The notes beneath the pieces were generated by a model. It was not told where the DNA came from. It was given only the letters and a program-made list of their open reading frames with translations, and ran no database searches. From Thermocoleostomius sinensis A174 (GTDB taxonomy: Bacteria > Cyanobacteriota > Cyanobacteriia > Elainellales > Elainellaceae), in the NCBI RefSeq assembly GCF_026802175.1, contig NZ_CP113797.1, positions 4,565,026 through 4,629,025 on the forward strand: DNA of 64,000 nucleotides, written 5' to 3'. The position numbers and the translations under genes are program-made. Of this stretch, positions 15,009-38,378 are shown in pieces (positions within the stretch are counted from its first letter, which is position 1; every line of letters begins with the position of its first letter).

Positions 15009-16232
15009 ATGCTGCCAACTGATCTGTTGATTCATCGGCAGAATGGAGAAGAGATTGTTCCTAAATATTTGCCAATTACCCAAAAAAGCGTGGCAATCGC
15101 CGCAGACTTGATCCATTTATTTCAACAGTGTCACGGAAAAACTCAGGGCGAACTAGAGCAACGGCTCCGAGAACTGGAAGGAACCAGCACTGACTATCGC
15201 ATCAAACGTGGACTGGCGCATCTATTGCGTAGCGAAACCTTCAGCAAATTTGAAATTGTCAGCCCATTAGAACCACAATTGCTGAGACAGCGGGTGTTTG
15301 CCCTCTCTGCCCGCGCCGCTCCTCTGCCGCAAACGGCGCCAAACACCTTAAAAACGATCGCCGCGCAACTGAGCCAAGAACTACAGCAAGAGATTTTTTC
15401 TGAACAAATTCGCACCGGGCTGTATGCTGATTTAGACGAAAACAAAATTTTGACACAGTTCGATGCCCCCAATCCTGAAGCCTTGCTGCATCGCTATAAT
15501 TTGTCGCAGGTACAAGGAATTTTCTATCGTGCTAGTCAGATTTGCATCAATGCCCACCGCAATGATCCGGGTGAATATAAGCTACTGTTTCGCTACCTAA
15601 AACTCTTTGGACTGATGACCTACATTGAAGGGGATGCCGATCATGGCTTCACGATTTCGATCGATGGCCCTACCAGTTTATTCAAGCCCAGTACTCGTTA
15701 TGGGCTTGACATTGCTAAGCTCATTCCAGCCTTACTGCACGTTTCCAAATGGAGCCTTGTGGCTGATTTACAACTACGCGATTCCTATAGCAAAACCAAT
15801 AGAACGGGTCGTTTCACCTTGGATTCTCAGTGCAATTTGGTGACGCACTATCCCCCTGGTAAACCCTACGACAGCTTGTTGGAATCTGCTTTTGTCGATC
15901 GCTGGCAGTCCACAAAAACTGAATGGCGCTTAGAAAGGGAAGTCGATTTAATTCCCATTCCCGGCAGTGTCATGATTCCCGATTTCCGCGTAGTGCATCC
16001 TGATGGTCGATCGTTTTTGCTGGAAATTGTGGGCTACTGGCGACCGGAATATTTGCGCAAGAAATTTTCACAAGTGCGGCAGTCAGGATGCTCTAATTTA
16101 ATTTTGGCGATTTCAGAACGCTTGAATTTGGAAAAAGCGGGTGTGCACGTTAGGAACTGCCCTGCTCAGGTGATTTGGTTCAAGGATAAGCTGTTACCGA
16201 AGGCGGTTCTGGCGGTGTTGGATGGGAAGTAG
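15009..16232 (+). CDS. DUF790 family protein, Bax1-like nuclease
   Basis: A 407-residue protein opening MLPTDLLIHRQNGEEIVPKY, the usual start of DUF790. In archaea the DUF790 protein Bax1 is the nuclease partner of the XPB helicase. Near residues 315-345 there is an EREVDLIPIPGSVMIPDF block followed by FLLEIVGYW; this PD...(L)E-x-V arrangement resembles a PD-(D/E)xK-type nuclease core with the lysine replaced. The N-terminal two thirds are helical. No helicase gene is adjacent; the nearest SF2 helicase in the window is 12 kb away. Function as a DNA repair nuclease is by family only. Confidence 0.82.
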   Translation: MLPTDLLIHRQNGEEIVPKYLPITQKSVAIAADLIHLFQQCHGKTQGELEQRLRELEGTSTDYRIKRGLAHLLRSETFSKFEIVSPLEPQLLRQRVFALSARAAPLPQTAPNTLKTIAAQLSQELQQEIFSEQIRTGLYADLDENKILTQFDAPNPEALLHRYNLSQVQGIFYRASQICINAHRNDPGEYKLLFRYLKLFGLMTYIEGDADHGFTISIDGPTSLFKPSTRYGLDIAKLIPALLHVSKWSLVADLQLRDSYSKTNRTGRFTLDSQCNLVTHYPPGKPYDSLLESAFVDRWQSTKTEWRLEREVDLIPIPGSVMIPDFRVVHPDGRSFLLEIVGYWRPEYLRKKFSQVRQSGCSNLILAISERLNLEKAGVHVRNCPAQVIWFKDKLLPKAVLAVLDGK

Positions 16233-16309: not shown

Positions 16310-18850
16310 CTACGGTATTAACGAGGGACATCCATCGGCTTTATCGTCTATCACTTTACCAATCAACTGGGTGGCCATTTCGACCCCTACAGGTTTACAG
16401 AACAAATAGCCTTGTGCCTGATCACAGTAAAGCGCCTTTAGTTGGACTAACTGTTTTTGGGTTTCGACTCCTTCTGCAATCACTTCCATGCCTAAATTCC
16501 ATGCCAAGGTAATGATAGTCCGAACAATGGCCAGTTGTTCACCATCGGTATCAATCTTGCTGGTAAACGATCGATCAATCTTCAGGGTGTCGATGGGAAA
16601 GCGATGCAAATAACTAAGCGACGAATAGCCTGTGCCAAAATCATCAATGGCTAAACCAATACCTAGATCTTGTAATTGAGTCAGTGTCGTAATCGCTGCC
16701 TCGGCGTTTTCCATCAATACACTTTCAGTAATTTCAAGTTTTAGATAGCGGGCTTCTAGTTGCGTTTCCTGCAAAATTTGATGGATTTCATCAATCAATT
16801 GAGGAGTAAATTGTTTGCTCGATAAATTGACATTAATTGTGAGAGTCAGGTCTGGGTGCTGTTGACGCCACTGCTGCATTTGACGACAAGCTGCTTGTAA
16901 TACCCAATGCCCAATGGGAACAATGAATCCAGTTTCTTCGGCGATCGCGATAAAGTCACCAGGAGCAACGATGCCACGTTTGGGATGCTGCCAACGCAAT
17001 AGGGCTTCAAATCCAACAATCTGTTGATTTCTTAACGACACAATGGGCTGATAATGGAGTAACAGTTCCTGCCGTTCCACTGTTCGGCGCAAATCGGTTT
17101 CTAGCTGCAACATTGCCACGGCCTGCGTATGCATATTGATATTGAAGATTTCCGATCGCCCTCGCCCTTTTTCTTTGGCTCGATACATTGCTGTATCTGC
17201 ATCTCGCAGTAATTCTTCAGGACGAGTGTAGCTCCGATTGCCATAGGCAATGCCAATACTGGCAGCCGTGAAGACTTCGTGACCTTCTAAGTTAAACGAG
17301 AGTGATAATTCTTTGTGAATTTTTTCTGCAAAAGCAATGACACTTAATTGACTGCTAATTTTTTCTAGCAGAATCACAAACTCATCTCCACCTAACCGTG
17401 CCAAGGTATCTGACGAACGTAAGCACTGAGACAACCGCTTGGTAATGGCAATCAACAACTGATCGCCTAGCATATGACCTAAACTATCGTTAATGACTTT
17501 AAAGCGATCGAGATCGATAAAAAGAATTGCAAACTGTCCTGATCCAGCTTGAGTACGTTGAATGGCATGACGCAAGCGCTCAATTAATAGTACCCGGTTA
17601 GGTAATCCAGTAAGCGTATCGTGTAGCGCATCATGCACTAACTTGGCTTCGGCTTGTTTCCAGGCTGTGACATCGGTTTGCGAACCGGCCACTCGACTCG
17701 GCTTTCCCAATGCATCTTGAACAGCGGCTCCTCGCGTCAGCATCCAACGATATCGCCCGTCTTGGTGCAAAATACGATATTCGGTTTCAAAATGAGTTGT
17801 TAGCCCACTGAGATGATCGCTGAGTTGTTGTTTAACCCACTGCAAATCTTGAGGATGAATGCGACCAATCCACTCTTCAATGCTGTTCTGAATTTCATGG
17901 TCTTGATAGCCCAACATTGCTTTCCAGCGAGAAGAGAAATAAACTTCATTGGTTTTTAAGTTCCAGTCCCAGATGCCATCATTAGCTCCTTTTACAGCTA
18001 GGGCATAGCGTTCTTCACTATCACGGAGGGCCGCTTCAGCACGGATGCGATCGGAAATATCAAACTGTAACCCAATGAAACTGATTAAGTTGCCGTACTC
18101 ATCAAAGACCGGATTAATGGTCAGTTCATTCCAAAACGGCGTGCCATCTTTGCGATAGTTGAGAATGACGCAGGTGATCGGGCGAACGTGAGCAACGGCT
18201 TCGCGAATTTGCTGAATCACCCGTGGTTCACTATCGACGCCTTGAAGCAGGCGGCAATTTTGTCCCACAATTTCGCGGCTAGTATATCCAGTCAAGGTGG
18301 TGAAGGCAGCATTGATAAACATCACCGGATTATCCGGTTGCTTGGCATCCGTAATTACCACCCCTGTACTGATATTGGCAACAGCCAATGCCAATTGCTC
18401 TTTGTCTTGTAAAGCTTGACGTAGTTGACTCAGCGTATAGGAATGCTGAATGGCATATCGAATCGATCGTTCTAGAACCGAAGCTGTGATTTCCCCTTTC
18501 ATCAGATAATCGGCGGCTCCGGCTTGCATAGCGGCTACATCAACCGGAGGATCGTCTTGCTCTGTCAGTAGAATCATTGGAGGTTGATTGCGTGGAACGT
18601 GATGAAACTGCTGCATGGCTTCGCGCAACAGATCAAGTCCGTTGTATGGCCCCAAGCGGTAATCAATTAAATAAACATCATGGTGACGTTGCGCAATTTC
18701 TGCCAGCGCTTGATCATAAGATAGAACCCAATCAAGCTGAAACGTTTCCCCTTTAATCTCAGAAAGCAGACTGTGCATGAGAACATAATCATCCTCATCC
18801 TCATCCACCAACAGTACTCTGATTACGGGATACAGCATAACCCCATGCAC
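16310..18850 (-). CDS. REC-LOV-PAS-GGDEF-EAL protein, candidate blue-light cyclic-di-GMP enzyme
   Basis: 846 residues. Receiver domain 8-130 with phospho-acceptor D63 (LIDYRLG). A first PAS, about 155-270, is a complete LOV domain: GQNCRLLQ with adduct cysteine C199, the flavin-contacting N231 and N241 (NYRKDGTPFWN) and Q262 (FIGLQFD). A second PAS/PAC follows at 275-400 (DGIWDWNLKTNEVYFSSRWK). GGDEF at 487-491 is intact, with the inhibitory-site RSSD at 478-481 five residues ahead. The EAL domain has EALL at 615-618, NVNLS, LEITES, DDFGTG, LKID and AEGVET, so the phosphodiesterase should be active. ATG 18838 is an alternative start four codons in. Transcribed alone. Confidence 0.9.
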   Translation of the reverse strand: MHGVMLYPVIRVLLVDEDEDDYVLMHSLLSEIKGETFQLDWVLSYDQALAEIAQRHHDVYLIDYRLGPYNGLDLLREAMQQFHHVPRNQPPMILLTEQDDPPVDVAAMQAGAADYLMKGEITASVLERSIRYAIQHSYTLSQLRQALQDKEQLALAVANISTGVVITDAKQPDNPVMFINAAFTTLTGYTSREIVGQNCRLLQGVDSEPRVIQQIREAVAHVRPITCVILNYRKDGTPFWNELTINPVFDEYGNLISFIGLQFDISDRIRAEAALRDSEERYALAVKGANDGIWDWNLKTNEVYFSSRWKAMLGYQDHEIQNSIEEWIGRIHPQDLQWVKQQLSDHLSGLTTHFETEYRILHQDGRYRWMLTRGAAVQDALGKPSRVAGSQTDVTAWKQAEAKLVHDALHDTLTGLPNRVLLIERLRHAIQRTQAGSGQFAILFIDLDRFKVINDSLGHMLGDQLLIAITKRLSQCLRSSDTLARLGGDEFVILLEKISSQLSVIAFAEKIHKELSLSFNLEGHEVFTAASIGIAYGNRSYTRPEELLRDADTAMYRAKEKGRGRSEIFNINMHTQAVAMLQLETDLRRTVERQELLLHYQPIVSLRNQQIVGFEALLRWQHPKRGIVAPGDFIAIAEETGFIVPIGHWVLQAACRQMQQWRQQHPDLTLTINVNLSSKQFTPQLIDEIHQILQETQLEARYLKLEITESVLMENAEAAITTLTQLQDLGIGLAIDDFGTGYSSLSYLHRFPIDTLKIDRSFTSKIDTDGEQLAIVRTIITLAWNLGMEVIAEGVETQKQLVQLKALYCDQAQGYLFCKPVGVEMATQLIGKVIDDKADGCPSLIP

Positions 18851-19204: not shown

Positions 19205-20017
19205 TTACTCGATCGCGGCTAGCGCTGCACAATAGGCTTGCACTTGGGCATCAATGCCTGTAATGGCTGTACCTACCACCACGGCATAGGCTCCTAGTTC
19301 GATCGCCCGTTGGGCCAGAGCCGGAGACGCAATACCACCTTCACAGATGACCGGAACGGTTAATGTCTGCACCATTTGCTGCAATAGATCAAATCCGGGG
19401 GGGGAATACGGTTGTGTTTGGGACGTATAGCCATACAGGGTTGTACCAACCAAATCAGCCCCTGCTTCTACGGCAGCGATCGCAGACTCTAGAGTATCCA
19501 CATCAGCCATAACAGGTTTGCCTAATTGTTGGTGAATTTGAGCAATTAAGCCAGCAACAGTTTCTTCACCCGGTCGCGGCCTTGAGGTTGCATCGATGGC
19601 TATGATGTCGGCTCCGGCTTCGGCGATGGCTTTAGCATGGTGAAATTGGGGCGTAATGTAGACTTCAAAGCCAGGTATTTGTTGCTTCCATAACCCAATG
19701 ATGGGAACATCAACCTGTTGCCGCACAGCTTGTACATGAATGGGGGTATCAATCCGAACGCCCACTGCTCCTCGTTTAACAGCCGTAAGGGCTAACGCTG
19801 CAATCATGGCTGGGTCATGCAGGGGAGAATCGACGGGCGCTTGACAAGAGACCACCAATCCTTGCTGTAAGGCTGCTATTGACACCGATCGCGTCGATCG
19901 TGATGGTGCCCACACGTCATCAAGACGGGAATTGTTAGCATGAGAATGCTTGGAATAGGAATTAAGCTCTGATTCCATTGCCATAATCGCTTGCCTTCTG
20001 CCTGGTGGAATGTCCAA
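19205..20017 (-). CDS. nanE: N-acetylmannosamine-6-phosphate 2-epimerase
   Basis: TIM-barrel enzyme that interconverts ManNAc-6-P and GlcNAc-6-P. Seen: QQGLVVSCQAPVDSPLHDP near the start of the barrel, the lysine K111 in IIGLWKQQ, IDATSRPRPG, and the glutamate E226 in VPVICEGGIASP, which correspond to the catalytic Lys and Glu of NanE. The 270-residue frame has about 40 extra polar residues in front of the usual start; a later initiation is possible, for example the ATG encoding MAMESELNSY or the GTG encoding V45 in SVSIAALQQ. Divergent from the kinase gene glk with 197 bases between them. Confidence 0.85.
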   Translation of the reverse strand: MDIPPGRRQAIMAMESELNSYSKHSHANNSRLDDVWAPSRSTRSVSIAALQQGLVVSCQAPVDSPLHDPAMIAALALTAVKRGAVGVRIDTPIHVQAVRQQVDVPIIGLWKQQIPGFEVYITPQFHHAKAIAEAGADIIAIDATSRPRPGEETVAGLIAQIHQQLGKPVMADVDTLESAIAAVEAGADLVGTTLYGYTSQTQPYSPPGFDLLQQMVQTLTVPVICEGGIASPALAQRAIELGAYAVVVGTAITGIDAQVQAYCAALAAIE

Positions 20018-31805: not shown

Positions 31806-33110
31806 CTATGATTCTTGTGGGCTACGGGCTGGAATAACAATCTGAAATTCTGTCCCTTCAGATGCCGTGTGATATGTCAACGTTCCTCCGTGCTTACCCA
31901 CAACAATTTGATAACTAGTGGGCAATCCCAGTCCTGTTCCCTGTCCAACCGATTTAGTAGTGAAAAATGGTTCAAATAAACGCGCTCGAATCGCTTCCGG
32001 AATGCCCAATCCATTATCTTTGATTGAAATTTGAATCATGTCTCGATCGATCACCTTAGTTTCAATCCAGAGCGTGGGTTCATAGGCAACCTGCTTATAG
32101 TGTTGACTTGCTACTTCTAGCGCATCAATGGCATTCGACAATAAGTTGAAAAATACCTGATTTAACTGTCTCGCATAACAGGTCACGATCGGCAAATTTC
32201 CATAGTGCTTAACTACTTTAATTGAAGTCGTTGCAGAAGTTGTTACTTGAATTGTGAGGCGATGATTCAACAACAATAATGTGCTATCGAGACCATGATG
32301 TACATTAACAGGTTTAATATCGGACTCATCAAGATGCGAGAAAATTCGTAGAGCTAAAATGATCGCGCAAATTCGCTCTACTCCAGTTTGCATAGAACCG
32401 AACAATTTCTTTAAGTCACATAGCAAAAAATCCAAATCTATCTCATTTATTACTTGTTGAATGGCAGGCGTTGGTTGAGGATATTCTGTTTGATATAGCT
32501 TGATGAGCTTTAATAGATCTTGAATATAGTCGCCAGCAGGTGACAGATTACCTGCAATAAAGTTAACGGGATTATTGAATTCATGTGCAATTCCTGCCAC
32601 AAACTGTCCTAATCCAATCAGTTTTTCTTTTTGAATTAACTGTGCTTGTGTTGTTTTGAGGTGATCTAATGCTTGTCGAAGTTGTTCGTTTTGTACATGC
32701 AGTTGTGTTTGCAAATCCTGGATCGTCAATTGATGTTGAATGCGGGCTAATACTTCTTCAATTTGAAATGGTTTTGTGACATAATCGGCTCCGCCAACTT
32801 GAAATGCTTTCACTTTATCTAATACATCATCAAGAGCGCTTAAGAAAATGACCGGAATTTGAGCCGTTCGTCGATCGTTTCTCAATTCTTGGCATACTTG
32901 ATATCCAGACATATCAGGCATATTAATATCCAGTAAAATTAAATCAGGAATGGTTGTACGAATTGCCATAAGCGCCATTTTTCCACTAATAGCTTTGCGA
33001 ACATGATAGCCTTGTTTTAAGAGTATTGTTGAAAGGACGCGAACATTGTCTGGAATATCGTCCACAACCAAAATATCAGCTTTTAATTCATTATCAATCA
33101 GAATGTTCAT
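31806..33110 (-). CDS. REC domain-containing histidine kinase
   Basis: 434 residues: an N-terminal receiver (12-130; phospho-acceptor D61 in LILLDINMPD; K113 in VTKPFQ), a coiled coil (QDLQTQLHVQNEQLRQALDH), an HisKA domain with H176 in FVAGIAHEFNNPVNFI, and an HATPase with NLLSNAIDALE, DNGLGIP and GTGLGLPTSY. Cytoplasmic; the receiver would sense phosphate from another kinase. Last of three co-directed signalling genes, 82 bases after the GGDEF-EAL gene. Confidence 0.92.
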   Translation of the reverse strand: MNILIDNELKADILVVDDIPDNVRVLSTILLKQGYHVRKAISGKMALMAIRTTIPDLILLDINMPDMSGYQVCQELRNDRRTAQIPVIFLSALDDVLDKVKAFQVGGADYVTKPFQIEEVLARIQHQLTIQDLQTQLHVQNEQLRQALDHLKTTQAQLIQKEKLIGLGQFVAGIAHEFNNPVNFIAGNLSPAGDYIQDLLKLIKLYQTEYPQPTPAIQQVINEIDLDFLLCDLKKLFGSMQTGVERICAIILALRIFSHLDESDIKPVNVHHGLDSTLLLLNHRLTIQVTTSATTSIKVVKHYGNLPIVTCYARQLNQVFFNLLSNAIDALEVASQHYKQVAYEPTLWIETKVIDRDMIQISIKDNGLGIPEAIRARLFEPFFTTKSVGQGTGLGLPTSYQIVVGKHGGTLTYHTASEGTEFQIVIPARSPQES

Positions 33111-33192: not shown

Positions 33193-35019
33193 TTACCAAC
33201 AAGGATTTTTTATCAATAACTCGTTTGTTTCTGCAATAGATAAAGGTGCCGAGAATAAATATCCTTGTCCTAATTCACAGTTTAAATGCTTCAGAAGCGT
33301 CAATTGCTCAAGCGTTTCAATACCTTCGGCGACAACGCTCATTTGCATTGCTCTTGCAATACTAATAATGGCTGGAATTAAGCCAGAGTTTACAGAGGAT
33401 TTGGTTAATCGTTGAATAAACGATCGGTCAATTTTCAAACTGTCTGCCGGAAAGGCTTGCAAATAACTTAATGACGAATATCCTGTGCCAAAATCATCAA
33501 TACTAAGATGGATTCTTCGCTTTTTCAATTGCTTTAAGATACTGGTAACAAGCTTCGTATTATTCATGATGTTGCTCTCGGTAATTTCTAACTTTAAATG
33601 AAATGGGCTGATCTGCGTTTCAAATAAAATTTGGTCGATTTGTTGAATGAGATTCGTTTGCACAAATTGTCGTGCAGATAGGTTAATGCTGACACTAAAT
33701 CGCTGATCTACAAGTCCTTGTTGTTGCCAGTTACGTAACTGTTGGCAAGCCGTGCGGATCACCCACTCGCCAATTGAAAGAATTAAACCTGTCTCTTCAG
33801 CAATTGGAATAAACTCGATAGGTGAAATGAATCCTTGTTGTGGGTGCTGCCAGCGTAAAAGTGCCTCTAGTCCAGTGATGTGTCCCGTTGTCAGAGAAAC
33901 GATCGGCTGATAATGCAACACAAATTCCTGTGCCTCCAAAGCCCGACGCATATCGGTTTCAAGTTGCAGCAGACGCAAGACTGCTTCGTGCATCGCCGTA
34001 TCAAAGACCTGATACTGAGCTTTTCCGAGTGCCTTAGCTCGATACATGGCTGTGTCTGCATCTCGTAACACATGCTCGGATTTTGTATAGCCTGCATGTC
34101 CCAAAACAATGCCGACGCTGGCTCCCGTAAATACTTGCCATTGTCTAATCTCAAACGGAGAGGCAAACATATCAAGTAGCATTTGAGCTAATTGAATGGC
34201 GCTATCTAGATTTGGCACATTTGGCATTAAAATCGCAAACTCATCACCTCCTAGGCGTGCGATCGTATCTGTCTGTTTCACGTAATGTTGCAAGCGCTGG
34301 GCAATGGCAATTAATAATTCATCTCCAACCAAATGTCCTAGAGAATCATTGATGACTTTGAAGCGATCGCAATCTAGAAACAAAACTGCAAACAAATACG
34401 AGGAATTGCAACTTGTATGTTTTATTTCTTTATTTAATCGATCGATAAACAACGATCGATTGGGTAAACCGGTAAGAGCGTCATAAAATGCCATTTCCAG
34501 TAATTGGGACTGAACTCGCTTGCGTTCAATAATTTCCTGAATGAGTTCTCGATTGAGGTCTTCTAACTGTCGAGTGCGTTCTTCTACTCGCTTCTCTAAT
34601 TCAGCGTTTAATTGCCGAATATCCCTGCTTCGCTGTCCCAACATCAGTTGAGTTTGAACCCGTGTCAATACTTCTTCAAACTGGAACGGTTTGGTAATGT
34701 AGTCTACGGCTCCCAGTTGAAACGCTTTGACTTTATCGAATGTCTCGTTTAGGGCGCTCAGAAAAATGATGGGAATGTCTGCTGTTGCTGGCACTGACTT
34801 TAAATGTTGACAAACCTGATATCCATCCATATCTGGCATCATGATATCTAGTAGAATCAAATCAGGAATAACCGTTTGAGCAGCCACAAGCGCTGCTTGT
34901 CCACTCAATGCCTTGCGAACAACACAGTCGCTCTGTTTGCTGAGCATGACAGAGAGTAAGCGCAGATTTTCAGGAGTATCATCGACAATTAGAATGTCGG
35001 CGGCTGGAAGGTGGTTCAC
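33193..35019 (-). CDS. REC-GGDEF-EAL cyclic-di-GMP enzyme
   Basis: 608 residues, GTG start overlapping the stop of the preceding kinase gene (GTGA). Receiver 7-125 with D58 ([10 protein letters not shown]) and K110; coiled coil 135-175 ([19 protein letters not shown]); GGDEF at 257-261, intact; EAL domain with EALL at 385-388, SINLS, LEITES, DDFGTG, LKID, AEGIET all present. The inhibitory site reads KQTD instead of RxxD, so product inhibition of the cyclase may be lost. Both a diguanylate cyclase and a phosphodiesterase are plausible; its receiver is the obvious target of the adjoining kinases. Confidence 0.93.
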
Positions 35020-38000
35020 GCTATGGGTTCCTTACGAAGGTTGGTTGATTCCATCAGCGCAATGATTTGAGCAAATTGAAAATTGCGTGCTAATGTCTCC
35101 AACACGCTTGCTAGTTTAGATGGAAGAGGAATTTGCTCAATCAGCTTAAAAATGAGGAGATCACTTCCTTGAGAAGCCGCATGGTAGAGTTGTTGTGTCC
35201 ATTCGGACGGCATCGCTCGGATAGTAGCTTCAATTTCTGTTTGACTATAACTAGTCTGATCAGTATGCGGTGTATGGTCGCAATTTTGAGAAGATGGCGC
35301 TTGCCAAGTAGTAATCGAAGGTTGGGATTGAGGTTGCGAATTTAATGCATGATTAGAATTATCTTCTGTATTCCAAGTTGGAATTGTATCGGTATAGAGA
35401 TAGGTTAACTTTAAATGTTGCTCCATCTTCATCAGTAAATCAGCTTCTTGGAACGGCTTACTCACAAAATCATCGCAACCAGCGGTCAAAATTGACTGAC
35501 GCTGTTCTTCAAAAGCACTGGCTGTTAAGGCAATGATGATTGTGGGTTGAGGCATTGTCTGTGTTGGAAGCAGTAATCCTTGGGTTGCTTCTTTCTGGCG
35601 AATGCACTGAGTGGCTCTATAACCATCCATCACTGGCATTCGTATATCCATCCAGATCAGGTGCGGCTTCCAATCTTCCCACCGTTCAATAGCTTGCTGA
35701 CCGTTCTCTGCCTCCTCTACCTCAAATCCCAATGAACTCAAGAGCGTCACTAACAACAAACGGTTAGCGGGTTGATCTTCCACTACCAAAACTCGATAGG
35801 TAGGCTGATTGGGAGCAAGGCCGATCGCTTTACGGCGCTGGGGTGGTAAATACGCGATCGGAGATGGTTGGGCTGATTGCACATGAATATCAAGGGCAAA
35901 TGTAGCTCCCTGACCCACAACACTATGAACAGTAATTTCTCCACCCATCAGTGCCACAAATTTTTGACTAATAGCTAACCCCAAGCCAGTTCCTTGTTTG
36001 GATTGAAACCCTGATTGAGTTTGCTCAAATGGCTTGAATAGCTGCTTGAGTTCATCGGGGGCAATTCCAGGTCCAGTATCCTTAACTTCAATGTGTAGCT
36101 TCAAGGCGGATGCAGCCAATTCTTCATCTATCAAACTGACACGTAGGATAACATGACCTACTTTGGTGAACTTAATAGCATTACCAAGCAGATTAATTAG
36201 AATTTGGCGCAATTTACTTTCGTCAGTTTTGATAAATTGTGGTAGGTTGCTAGCATAGATCAGCATCAACTGTAATCCTTTCGATCGAGCGTGAAGCTGA
36301 AACATTTCCTCAAGGGAATGCAACAGACGATGCACATCGAACACCGTTTCATGCAGAATTGCGCGTCCTGCTTCAATTTTTGACATTTCCAAAATGTCAT
36401 TGATTAACCGTAAAAGGTGTTCACCGCTGCGATTAATAATATCGATATACTCCTGATGTTCCCTAGAAAGAGACGAGTCATCATTGAGGAGTTGTGCAAA
36501 TCCTAAAATTGCATTAAGTGGCGTTCGTAATTCATGACTCATGTTGGCCAAAAATTCACTTTTGGCTCGGTTGGCGGCATCAGCTACTTCTTTGGCTTTG
36601 CCCAGTTCTTCCGCTTGTCGCTGGGTTTGACCGAGCAATTCAGCTTGCTGGACAGCAACTCCTAGCTGAGTTCCAATTTGCCGCACAATTTGAATGTCGC
36701 TGTCTTGCCACTCACGAGGGGCTGTGTTTTGATAACTGGCTAACAATCCCCACAACTTGTTACTAGAGAAGATCGGAACAATAATGTAGGCTTGCGTTTG
36801 AATTTGTTCGAGAAGCTGAATATAGCAAGCCGTAAACCCAGCTTCATAAATATTAGAAACACAGCGATAGCCTTCACCATGGCGATACCGACCTCCTCGC
36901 GTTTCTTGAAGGTACGTATCTTGGATAGAGATATCTACCTGATTCAACTTGGCAATGGCGCAGTCTTTTTGCTCGATCGTTCTTTGGTTGAGCATCGAGG
37001 CTGTATCAGCGGCGGGAACGAGGGGTTTCCAGCCGGCCACCACCGACTCGGCAACGAATGACCCGCTCCAATCTAGATTAAATCGATACACAGCCACCCG
37101 ATCGCACTGAATGACTTGCCGAAGTTCGTCGGTTGTTGCCCTAAAAATTGTTTCCAAATCTAGCGTTTGCCGCATTCGTTGAATGACTTTTGCTAAAGCC
37201 CGTTCTCGTTCTGCGACTTGCAACAATTCAAGTTCTGCACGTTTCTGTGTTGTGATATCGCTAAAGGTACAGACAACTAATTCGACAGTGCCACGAGTGG
37301 TGGCAAACGGTTCAGCATTGACCAAAAGCCAGCGTTTTTCAGAACTGTGCGGAGATACAATTCCCATCATCACATCACGCACAGAGTTACGTTCGGCAAT
37401 CGATCGCTGGACAGGTAGCTCTTGCAGAGCAAACAAACAGCCATCCTCTCGAAACACCGTCCAGCCTACCCCAAACACCCGAGGAGACTGTTGGCGATCG
37501 CTCAAATTAAGCAGTCGTTCGGCCGCTTGATTGCTAATCAAGATCTCAGCCTTGTCGTTTAATAGCAATACACCAACTTGCATCTCGCGGATCAACATGC
37601 GGAATCGTTTCTCGCTTTCTTGCAGCATTTGCTGTTGCAGAAACTGGGTAGCGATGCGTTGATCGAATACTGAAATGATTAAGCTGAGAATCAGCAAGAT
37701 GATGGTTGCAAAACCAATAGCGATTGCTAGAAAGAGTGGATCGATGGAATAGAAAGATGAAACTGTGGGGCGATTGGTTGGCAAGAAATGAGTTGCTGCC
37801 ATTCCTGTATAGTGCATTCCAGTGATGGCAACGCTCATGACCCCTGCACTTGTCAGTTTTTGCCAAACGATGTGGTTGACTAGGGTTTGGGCCCGAAACG
37901 CTAGCCACAGAGCCATAATTGAGGCAACAATTGCGATGCCGATTGAAAGCACCACCAGGTAATGTGTATAGTGAATGTCTGCCTGAAGTTGCATAGCAGC

Positions 38001-38378
38001 CATTCCTGTATAGTGCATCCAAGCAATGGCAATCCCCATGCAAATTCCTCCCAACAGTAATCGTTCAATTGCATGAGGTTGGCTCAACAACCAAAGGGCT
38101 AGTCCAGAAGCGAAAATAGCCCACAACAAAGACAATAGCGTTGGTGAGACCCTATAGCTAACTGACAACGGCAAGTGTAAAGCTAGCATCGAGACAAAAT
38201 GCATTGACCAAATGCCAACACCGATGACAGTGGCTCCACCAATTAACCATTGCGGTAAGTTCTGTACTTGCTTAATTCGTACCGCCAAATCCATTGCCGT
38301 ATATGAGGTAAGCAGGGCAATGGCAAATGACAGCGCTACTAAACCAAGATTGTACGATCCTGAAATGTGATGCTCCAT
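35016..38378 (-). CDS. MHYT-PAS-GAF hybrid histidine kinase with C-terminal receiver
   Basis: 1120 residues. Seven hydrophobic segments in 1-240 carry the MHYT repeats (MHF at 59, MHYT at 121 and 188), a predicted copper or gas/redox-sensing membrane module. PAS about 255-375. GAF about 395-580, similar to cyanobacteriochrome GAFs: [16 protein letters not shown] carries C518 but has Tyr519 where the CH pair normally has His. HisKA with H615 ([12 protein letters not shown]), HATPase with [17 protein letters not shown] and [10 protein letters not shown], then a receiver with D911 ([14 protein letters not shown]). The C-terminal ~120 residues are polar, possibly Hpt-like but without a clear His motif. 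Starts 73 bases after the tail-protein gene; overlaps the next gene by 4 bases. Confidence 0.93.

Follow-up and report, generated by a model that had tools for sequence, protein, structure and literature searches.

A predicted cyclic-di-GMP enzyme with receiver and LOV inputs in Thermocoleostomius sinensis A174 and its relatives

The locus and the encoded protein

The DNA analysed here (the window) is a stretch of 64,000 nucleotides from Thermocoleostomius sinensis A174, whose genome is a single contig of 5.8 Mb and is 99.98% complete. Positions 16310-18850 on the minus strand form a single open frame of 846 amino acids with GTG at 18850 as its first start. Because the proteins of several relatives begin close to the equivalent of M5, translation more likely starts at the ATG at 18838; with that start, all residue numbers given here drop by 4. 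Pfam placed five domains in the order receiver (REC), LOV, PAS, GGDEF, and EAL, all with scores over the curated cut-offs. The receiver (Response_reg, PF00072, residues 12-119, 51 bits) is encoded at 18494-18817. The LOV domain (residues 152-268, 18047-18397) was matched by PAS_9 at residues 163-267 with 93 bits. The second PAS domain (about residues 276-400, 17651-18025), which has no known ligand, was matched by PAS_3, whose best stretch is 303-389 and whose 119 bits are a whole-protein score summed over two stretches. A coupling segment measured as 21 residues from the Asp of DVT to the Leu of DxLT (17612-17674) leads from this PAS domain to the GGDEF domain (residues 408-564, 17159-17629, 174 bits), which is followed by the EAL domain (residues 586-820, 16391-17095, 261 bits). 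All of these features are on the minus strand.

The upstream neighbour is nanE (N-acetylmannosamine-6-phosphate epimerase, Pfam NanE, 19205-20017, minus strand). It adjoins the enzyme gene at 15 examined loci and is used here as a synteny marker, and no functional link is claimed. On the other side, 77 nt past the enzyme stop, lies a DUF790 gene (Pfam, 15009-16232, plus strand), in the slot that a histidine kinase gene takes up in the kinase-bearing relatives of the same family. The window also contains a second c-di-GMP enzyme, a REC-GGDEF-EAL protein (Pfam, 33196-35019, minus strand). Its gene adjoins that of a REC-histidine kinase (Pfam, 31809-33110, minus strand) and is overlapped by 4 nt by a 1120-residue frame (35016-38378, minus strand) that looks by eye like a hybrid kinase.

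A sequence-only reading of the window had listed for the LOV domain a GQNCRLLQ motif with C199, the two Asn N231 and N241, and Q262. Each of these residues is in place. The motif spans residues 196-203 (18242-18265), and C199 is the predicted flavin-adduct cysteine. The LOV stretch matched solved LOV domains, e.g., phototropin-2 (E 9e-33), and its best solved chain (E 7e-36), in which NCRFLQ is aligned, is one that we take to be a LOV domain. These matches point to a LOV identity far beyond chance, and a degenerate PAS domain was ruled out as all key residues are present. The domain is predicted to bind flavin, and blue-light sensing by it is well supported by the sequence. A degenerate-codon search of the whole genome for GxNCRxxQ gave two matches, the C199 site and one with Ser in place of Arg. 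A reversed control pattern also gave two, and thus the single extra match is at chance level. By this motif search, which variants of the motif would escape, no second canonical LOV domain was found in the host genome.

The receiver has D63 (codon 18662-18664), as had been read, and this predicted phosphoacceptor is an Asp in 15/15 kinase-linked relatives. Together with T96, K118, and the pair D16-E17, it gives the domain the acidic pair, phosphoacceptor Asp, Thr/Ser, and Lys of response regulator receivers. E17 is unusual, because the second place of the acidic pair is Asp in the 11 kinase-linked relatives compared. The catalytic residues of both output domains were found as well. The GGDEF motif is at 487-491, with an inhibitory site, RSSD, at 478-481. 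The EAL motif is at 615-617, and E615, N675, E706 and E709, D736-D737, K757, E793, and Q813 make up what we take to be the catalytic set (EAL, Asn, Glu, Asp-Asp, Lys, Glu, Gln). With these motifs present, dead output domains were ruled out. Blue-light control of c-di-GMP, which the sequence-only reading had predicted, is thus sustained as far as light sensing and catalytic-looking output domains go; that reading left unsaid which of the two activities light changes.

A histidine kinase beside the gene in relatives

A full-length search of 36 genomes of the order gave matches at E <= 1e-150 in 33. Genomes in which the N-terminal half was not matched were dropped (G001, G002, G005, G007, G008, G013, G021, G030, G031, and G033), and 23 same-family loci were examined, including the window's own (genome G000). 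A search with the receiver plus LOV part in 388 genomes of the class gave matches at E <= 1e-40 in 27, from which ten loci outside the family were added, for a total of 33 loci or proteins. Further searches around G059, G100, and G104 gave just LOV matches in G294, G284, and G124, and second matches in G235 and G086. The relatives include filamentous cyanobacterium CCP2 (G009), FACHB-502 (G027), Kaiparowitsia implicata (G025), and LEGE 07170 (G034). An intact receiver, GxNCRxxQ, both Asn, the Gln, GGDEF, and EAL occur together in 14/33 proteins, which are G000, G009, G017, G003, G022, G023, G028, and G015 inside the family and G100, G104, G073, G059, G086, and G235 outside it. Several of the 33 proteins are longer and have extra PAS-like stretches, and the second PAS domain is absent in G100.

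The enzyme gene has a histidine kinase gene of one subfamily beside it, i.e., as the next gene or the next but one, at 15 of the 33 loci (6/23 of the same family and 9/10 of the other families, the exception being G042). These kinases carry HisKA and HATPase domains, and all 15 have SHDLQEPLRK(I/V)(Q/E) in the phosphotransfer helix. The same-family ones are PAS histidine kinases by Pfam, and the others are of the same catalytic type with varied sensor parts. Over the 15 kinases, Pfam found PAS, GAF, CHASE4, dCache, HAMP, or no sensor domains. As PHY is absent from 15/15, it was ruled out that the neighbour kinases are phytochromes forming a two-coloured unit with the enzyme. In G009, G003, G022, G023, G028, and G015 the kinase gene directly follows the enzyme gene on its strand. 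Counted by first start codon, the two genes overlap by 26 nt in G009, 1 nt in G022, 1 nt in G023, and 4 nt in G015. The kinase is on the opposite strand in G073, G059, and G086.

A small regulator, presumably Rcp1-like, adjoins the kinase at 12 of the 15 loci. It stands between the kinase and the enzyme gene in G073, G059, G086, G152, G228, and G262, where it could be the acceptor of the kinase. None is adjacent in G009, G022, and G023, and thus the enzyme's own receiver is the sole adjacent acceptor at those loci. When the 36 genomes were searched at E <= 1e-45, a small regulator turned up elsewhere in G009 and none in G022 or G023.

Two other arrangements were seen. In G042 (locus L181, 4181-7469), a short frame of its own encodes the receiver, directly upstream of the LOV-PAS-GGDEF-EAL frame and overlapping it, a layout that looks as though a REC fusion had been split. 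REC-LOV proteins with a full GRNCRFLQ (L173 3801-6116, L174 5146-7437, L175 1637-3934, and L176 4232-5959) are encoded next to a kinase and a small regulator, and the three that are not cut by a contig end have a histidine-kinase-like output. These genes represent a sister arrangement with a different output.

The receiver was intact in 15/15 proteins with the kinase versus 2/18 without it (G000 and G017), where 9 of the 15 kinase-linked cases stem from the receiver-plus-LOV search, which favoured intact receivers. Among same-family loci only, the counts were 6/6 versus 2/17 (Fisher p 0.0003, shared ancestry ignored), and among the 15 nanE-syntenic loci 5/5 versus 1/10 (p 0.002, shared ancestry likewise ignored). 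The window gene has the only intact receiver among the 10 kinase-less nanE-syntenic copies. On a PAS-GGDEF-EAL tree of 32 rows, from which G228 was excluded for its broken frame within EAL, the kinase changed 5 times, the receiver 5 times, and LOV 6 times. Four well-supported independent pairs gave 3 to 4 concordant kinase/receiver changes and 0 opposite ones (sign test p 0.125-0.25). With shared ancestry taken into account, the association falls short of significance. The kinase beside the gene at 15/33 loci and the integrity of the receiver, which tracks it, make a joint input likely in the family, and from these comparisons the receiver is likely a true second input there.

LOV was absent or without its cysteine at 11/18 kinase-less loci versus 3/15 kinase-linked ones (G152, G228, and G262). 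Since these three have the kinase and the receiver and lack the LOV motif, the two inputs are separable and the unit does not require the light input. The LOV change count and the LOV pair tests rest on an uneven scoring in the tree, in which G004 (Ser for the last Gln of the motif) and G025 were scored as having LOV and G027 and G016 (GKSCRLLQ, Leu for Gln262) as lacking it; the other LOV counts use the cysteine. The protein of G025 (locus L169, 5707-8385) keeps the LOV cysteine and has Leu for Gln262, which should alter or block signal output. At the syntenic locus of G027 (L168, 5716-8229), D63 and T96 of the receiver are replaced by Asn and Gly and the LOV motif is GTGCHFLQ, so both inputs are damaged together. 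In G025 and G004 the receiver is damaged or absent and LOV is nearly full, and the damaged LOV motif of G027 keeps its Cys. From these cases, LOV loss seems to lag behind receiver loss.

The receiver and the kinases of the T. sinensis genome

No kinase of the partner subfamily was found in the single-contig host genome, where none reached E 1e-75. The best-scoring match to the partner kinase has 48% identity over residues 380-638, the catalytic part (E 9e-59), and on this ground a move of the partner kinase to elsewhere in the genome was ruled out. The donor for D63 is thus missing or replaced in this organism. The claim that the protein takes phosphate at D63 therefore stands in part: the receiver residues are intact and the kinase link of the relatives backs a receiver input, but no known donor was found in the host genome. 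G000 is sister to G009 with support of 100/98 in the tree of the PAS-GGDEF-EAL part; G009 has the kinase, and G000 has the DUF790 gene instead.

The kinase may have been lost recently and the decay of the receiver may be still to come, in which case the receiver would be vestigial and the protein in effect a LOV-PAS-GGDEF-EAL enzyme responding to blue light only. This would fit the missing partner kinase, the DUF790 gene in the sister's kinase slot, and the eroded or missing receivers at 15/17 kinase-less same-family loci. It would also fit changes in the receiver itself. The window receiver deviates at 3 of 34 positions that are fixed in 11 kinase-linked receivers, among them D17E in the metal site and G97E next to T96, both at places otherwise fixed in those receivers, and a 5-residue insertion is absent from the other 13 rows of the alignment. 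From their positions, D17E and G97E could matter for receiver function. However, 3/34 is ordinary, as the kinase-linked receivers themselves deviate at 0-6 positions, and the phosphoacceptor, Thr, and Lys are all kept. Nor is REC faster than the other domains on the window branch (end-branch share of the domain tree 0.078 for REC, 0.094 for LOV, 0.096 for PAS, 0.099 for GGDEF, and 0.061 for EAL), and accelerated evolution of the receiver was ruled out by these shares and the number of deviations. G017 is also kinase-less with an intact receiver, though its genome is only 88% complete. We consider a vestigial receiver possible but rather doubtful.

With the partner kinase not found and the receiver not sped up, the receiver has either lost its donor recently or is served by a different kinase. 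Nearest to the partner kinase of the sister are two host kinases, one of 954 amino acids and one with a PHY domain, with 46-48% identity to it in their catalytic parts. Identity is higher in one stretch only (62% over 68 residues), which lies in the PHY-bearing kinase; across its whole catalytic part, that kinase is 46% identical. A take-over of the receiver by such a kinase, e.g., the Cph1-like phytochrome or the 954-residue kinase, would agree with these similarities and with a receiver retained without acceleration; if it took place, red and blue light, or another cue, would meet in one enzyme. The region of the phosphotransfer helix sets partner choice, and in the two host kinases it reads QEPLRMVTSYLQLL and QEPLNQVANYVQLL, unlike the partner subfamily. 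Each of them also has its own small regulator encoded next door, and a take-over by either is therefore quite improbable. Twice in the host genome (L218 2044-7236 and L219 1540-5862), genes for a kinase, a small regulator, and a REC-PAS-kinase-like protein are consecutive, with a PHY domain in one of the kinases; the layout is like the surroundings of the LOV enzyme in relatives.

Output, mechanism, and known systems

In NCBIfam, the output half is closest to five phosphodiesterases, Tlr1612, DibA, PRK10060, GepA, and DosP, all below the cut-off (Tlr1612-type 544 of 1600 bits, DibA-type 542 of 980 bits), and a diguanylate cyclase comes after them. The other sign is that light mainly raises c-di-GMP synthesis, the protein being a light-activated cyclase with an idle or regulatory EAL domain. 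The GGDEF motif is intact, the best match among solved structures is labelled a diguanylate cyclase, and the coupling segment has the 21 residues reported for short-linker light-activated LOV cyclases (PMC10396304). LOV-cyclases of simple architecture are described as light-activated cyclases in the same paper, which also describes LOV-GGDEF constructs from LOV-GGDEF-EAL proteins without light-regulated synthesis, though one such construct had an incomplete GGDEF motif (PMC10396304). Light-raised synthesis would further leave the scored EAL catalytic residues, kept in 32/33 proteins (the remaining one has a broken frame there), and the kinship with phosphodiesterases to be explained, and SL2 of Synechococcus is reported to raise its phosphodiesterase activity in blue light (PMC8846402). 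We regard light-raised synthesis as unlikely. The kinship of the output half, though below the cut-off, and the precedent of SL2 as described (PMC8846402) favour a phosphodiesterase, and the window protein is probably a net phosphodiesterase. A light-raised phosphodiesterase tuned by the receiver is thus the favoured reading, with the sign predicted from this kinship and precedent.

The best explanation of the locus, to which we give a probability of roughly 0.6, is a c-di-GMP enzyme with two inputs, blue light and phosphorylation, in which light would raise breakdown. In blue light, FMN in the LOV domain would form an adduct with C199. The change at Q262 and in the LOV exit helix would reach the GGDEF-EAL pair by way of the second PAS domain and the 21-residue segment. 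The receiver, once phosphorylated at D63, would act on the LOV entry helix. The donor in the family would be the histidine kinase encoded nearby, and in T. sinensis the receiver may be fed by another kinase or may now be idle. The net output would most likely be c-di-GMP breakdown, raised by light. We infer both the phosphotransfer and the transmission along helices. A structure model (mean pLDDT 85) has predicted helices, numbered from M5, at 119-143 from the receiver towards LOV, at 262-283 from LOV to PAS, and at 391-405 at the exit of PAS; its pTM of 0.45 makes the placement of the domains unsure. Coiled-coil register shifts are reported to control output in the LOV cyclase family (PMC10396304, PMC12805367).

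LOV-controlled and receiver-controlled c-di-GMP enzymes are known separately. SL2 of Synechococcus elongatus, a LOV-GGDEF-EAL protein, is reported as a blue-light-activated phosphodiesterase, and like the window protein it is cyanobacterial and combines GGDEF and EAL with a canonical LOV domain (PMC8846402). Compared by description and not by sequence, it differs in being described with LOV, GGDEF, and EAL only, and no receiver or partner kinase (PMC8846402). The LOV-activated diguanylate cyclases MsLadC, AoLadC, and their relatives share the LOV domain and the 21-residue coupling from D(V/I)(T/S) to DxLT of the short-linker class, but LOV is described directly before GGDEF there, and the window protein adds a receiver, a second PAS domain, and EAL (PMC10396304). 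With a PAS domain between LOV and GGDEF, it is not a short-linker LOV cyclase (LadC), the agreement being limited to the coupling length. CdgK-CdgS of Anabaena PCC 7120 is reported as an established case of a kinase acting through a receiver to control a c-di-GMP enzyme in a cyanobacterium, and the kinase gene there is adjacent and cotranscribed (PMC9927289). In contrast to the window protein, the flavin domain there is in the kinase, CdgK, whose PAS domain is reported to bind FMN, and the enzyme is described with REC and GGDEF (PMC9927289). RprR of Ralstonia pseudosolanacearum also joins LOV and other sensor domains to GGDEF and EAL, but is described with a periplasmic Cache domain and further PAS domains instead of a receiver, and blue light is reported to have little effect on transcription there (PMC12802281). 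A receiver and LOV in one chain are also described for archaeal receiver-LOV-PAS/GAF-HTH and bacterial LOV-receiver proteins, but those are DNA-binding or without c-di-GMP output (PMC4844311). In the survey reported there, about 18% of the 1390 bacterial LOV proteins combine LOV with GGDEF or with GGDEF and EAL (PMC4844311). No receiver-LOV-GGDEF-EAL protein was found in the literature searched, which left supplements and most subscription papers out of reach. A c-di-GMP enzyme that combines the two inputs in series, a partner kinase for it, and a joint decay of both inputs were likewise not found there.

Tentatively, and with less confidence than in the two-input enzyme itself, kinase, receiver, and LOV may form one evolutionary unit with an AND-type response. 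Loss of the kinase would be followed by decay of the receiver and then of LOV, with the output half staying, and the window gene, its kinase lost and both sensors still intact, would represent the stage just before decay or one after a take-over by another kinase. If so, the LOV-gated c-di-GMP enzyme, fed by a dedicated kinase subfamily, would respond only when phosphorylation and blue light agree. Both inputs in one chain, with relatives that have lost each of them, offer a way to study two-signal integration, and the family provides natural controls: G009 with the kinase versus G000 in which it was not found, and the intact G003 versus G027 with its damaged receiver and LOV motif. The enzyme could also become a two-input tool for c-di-GMP control.
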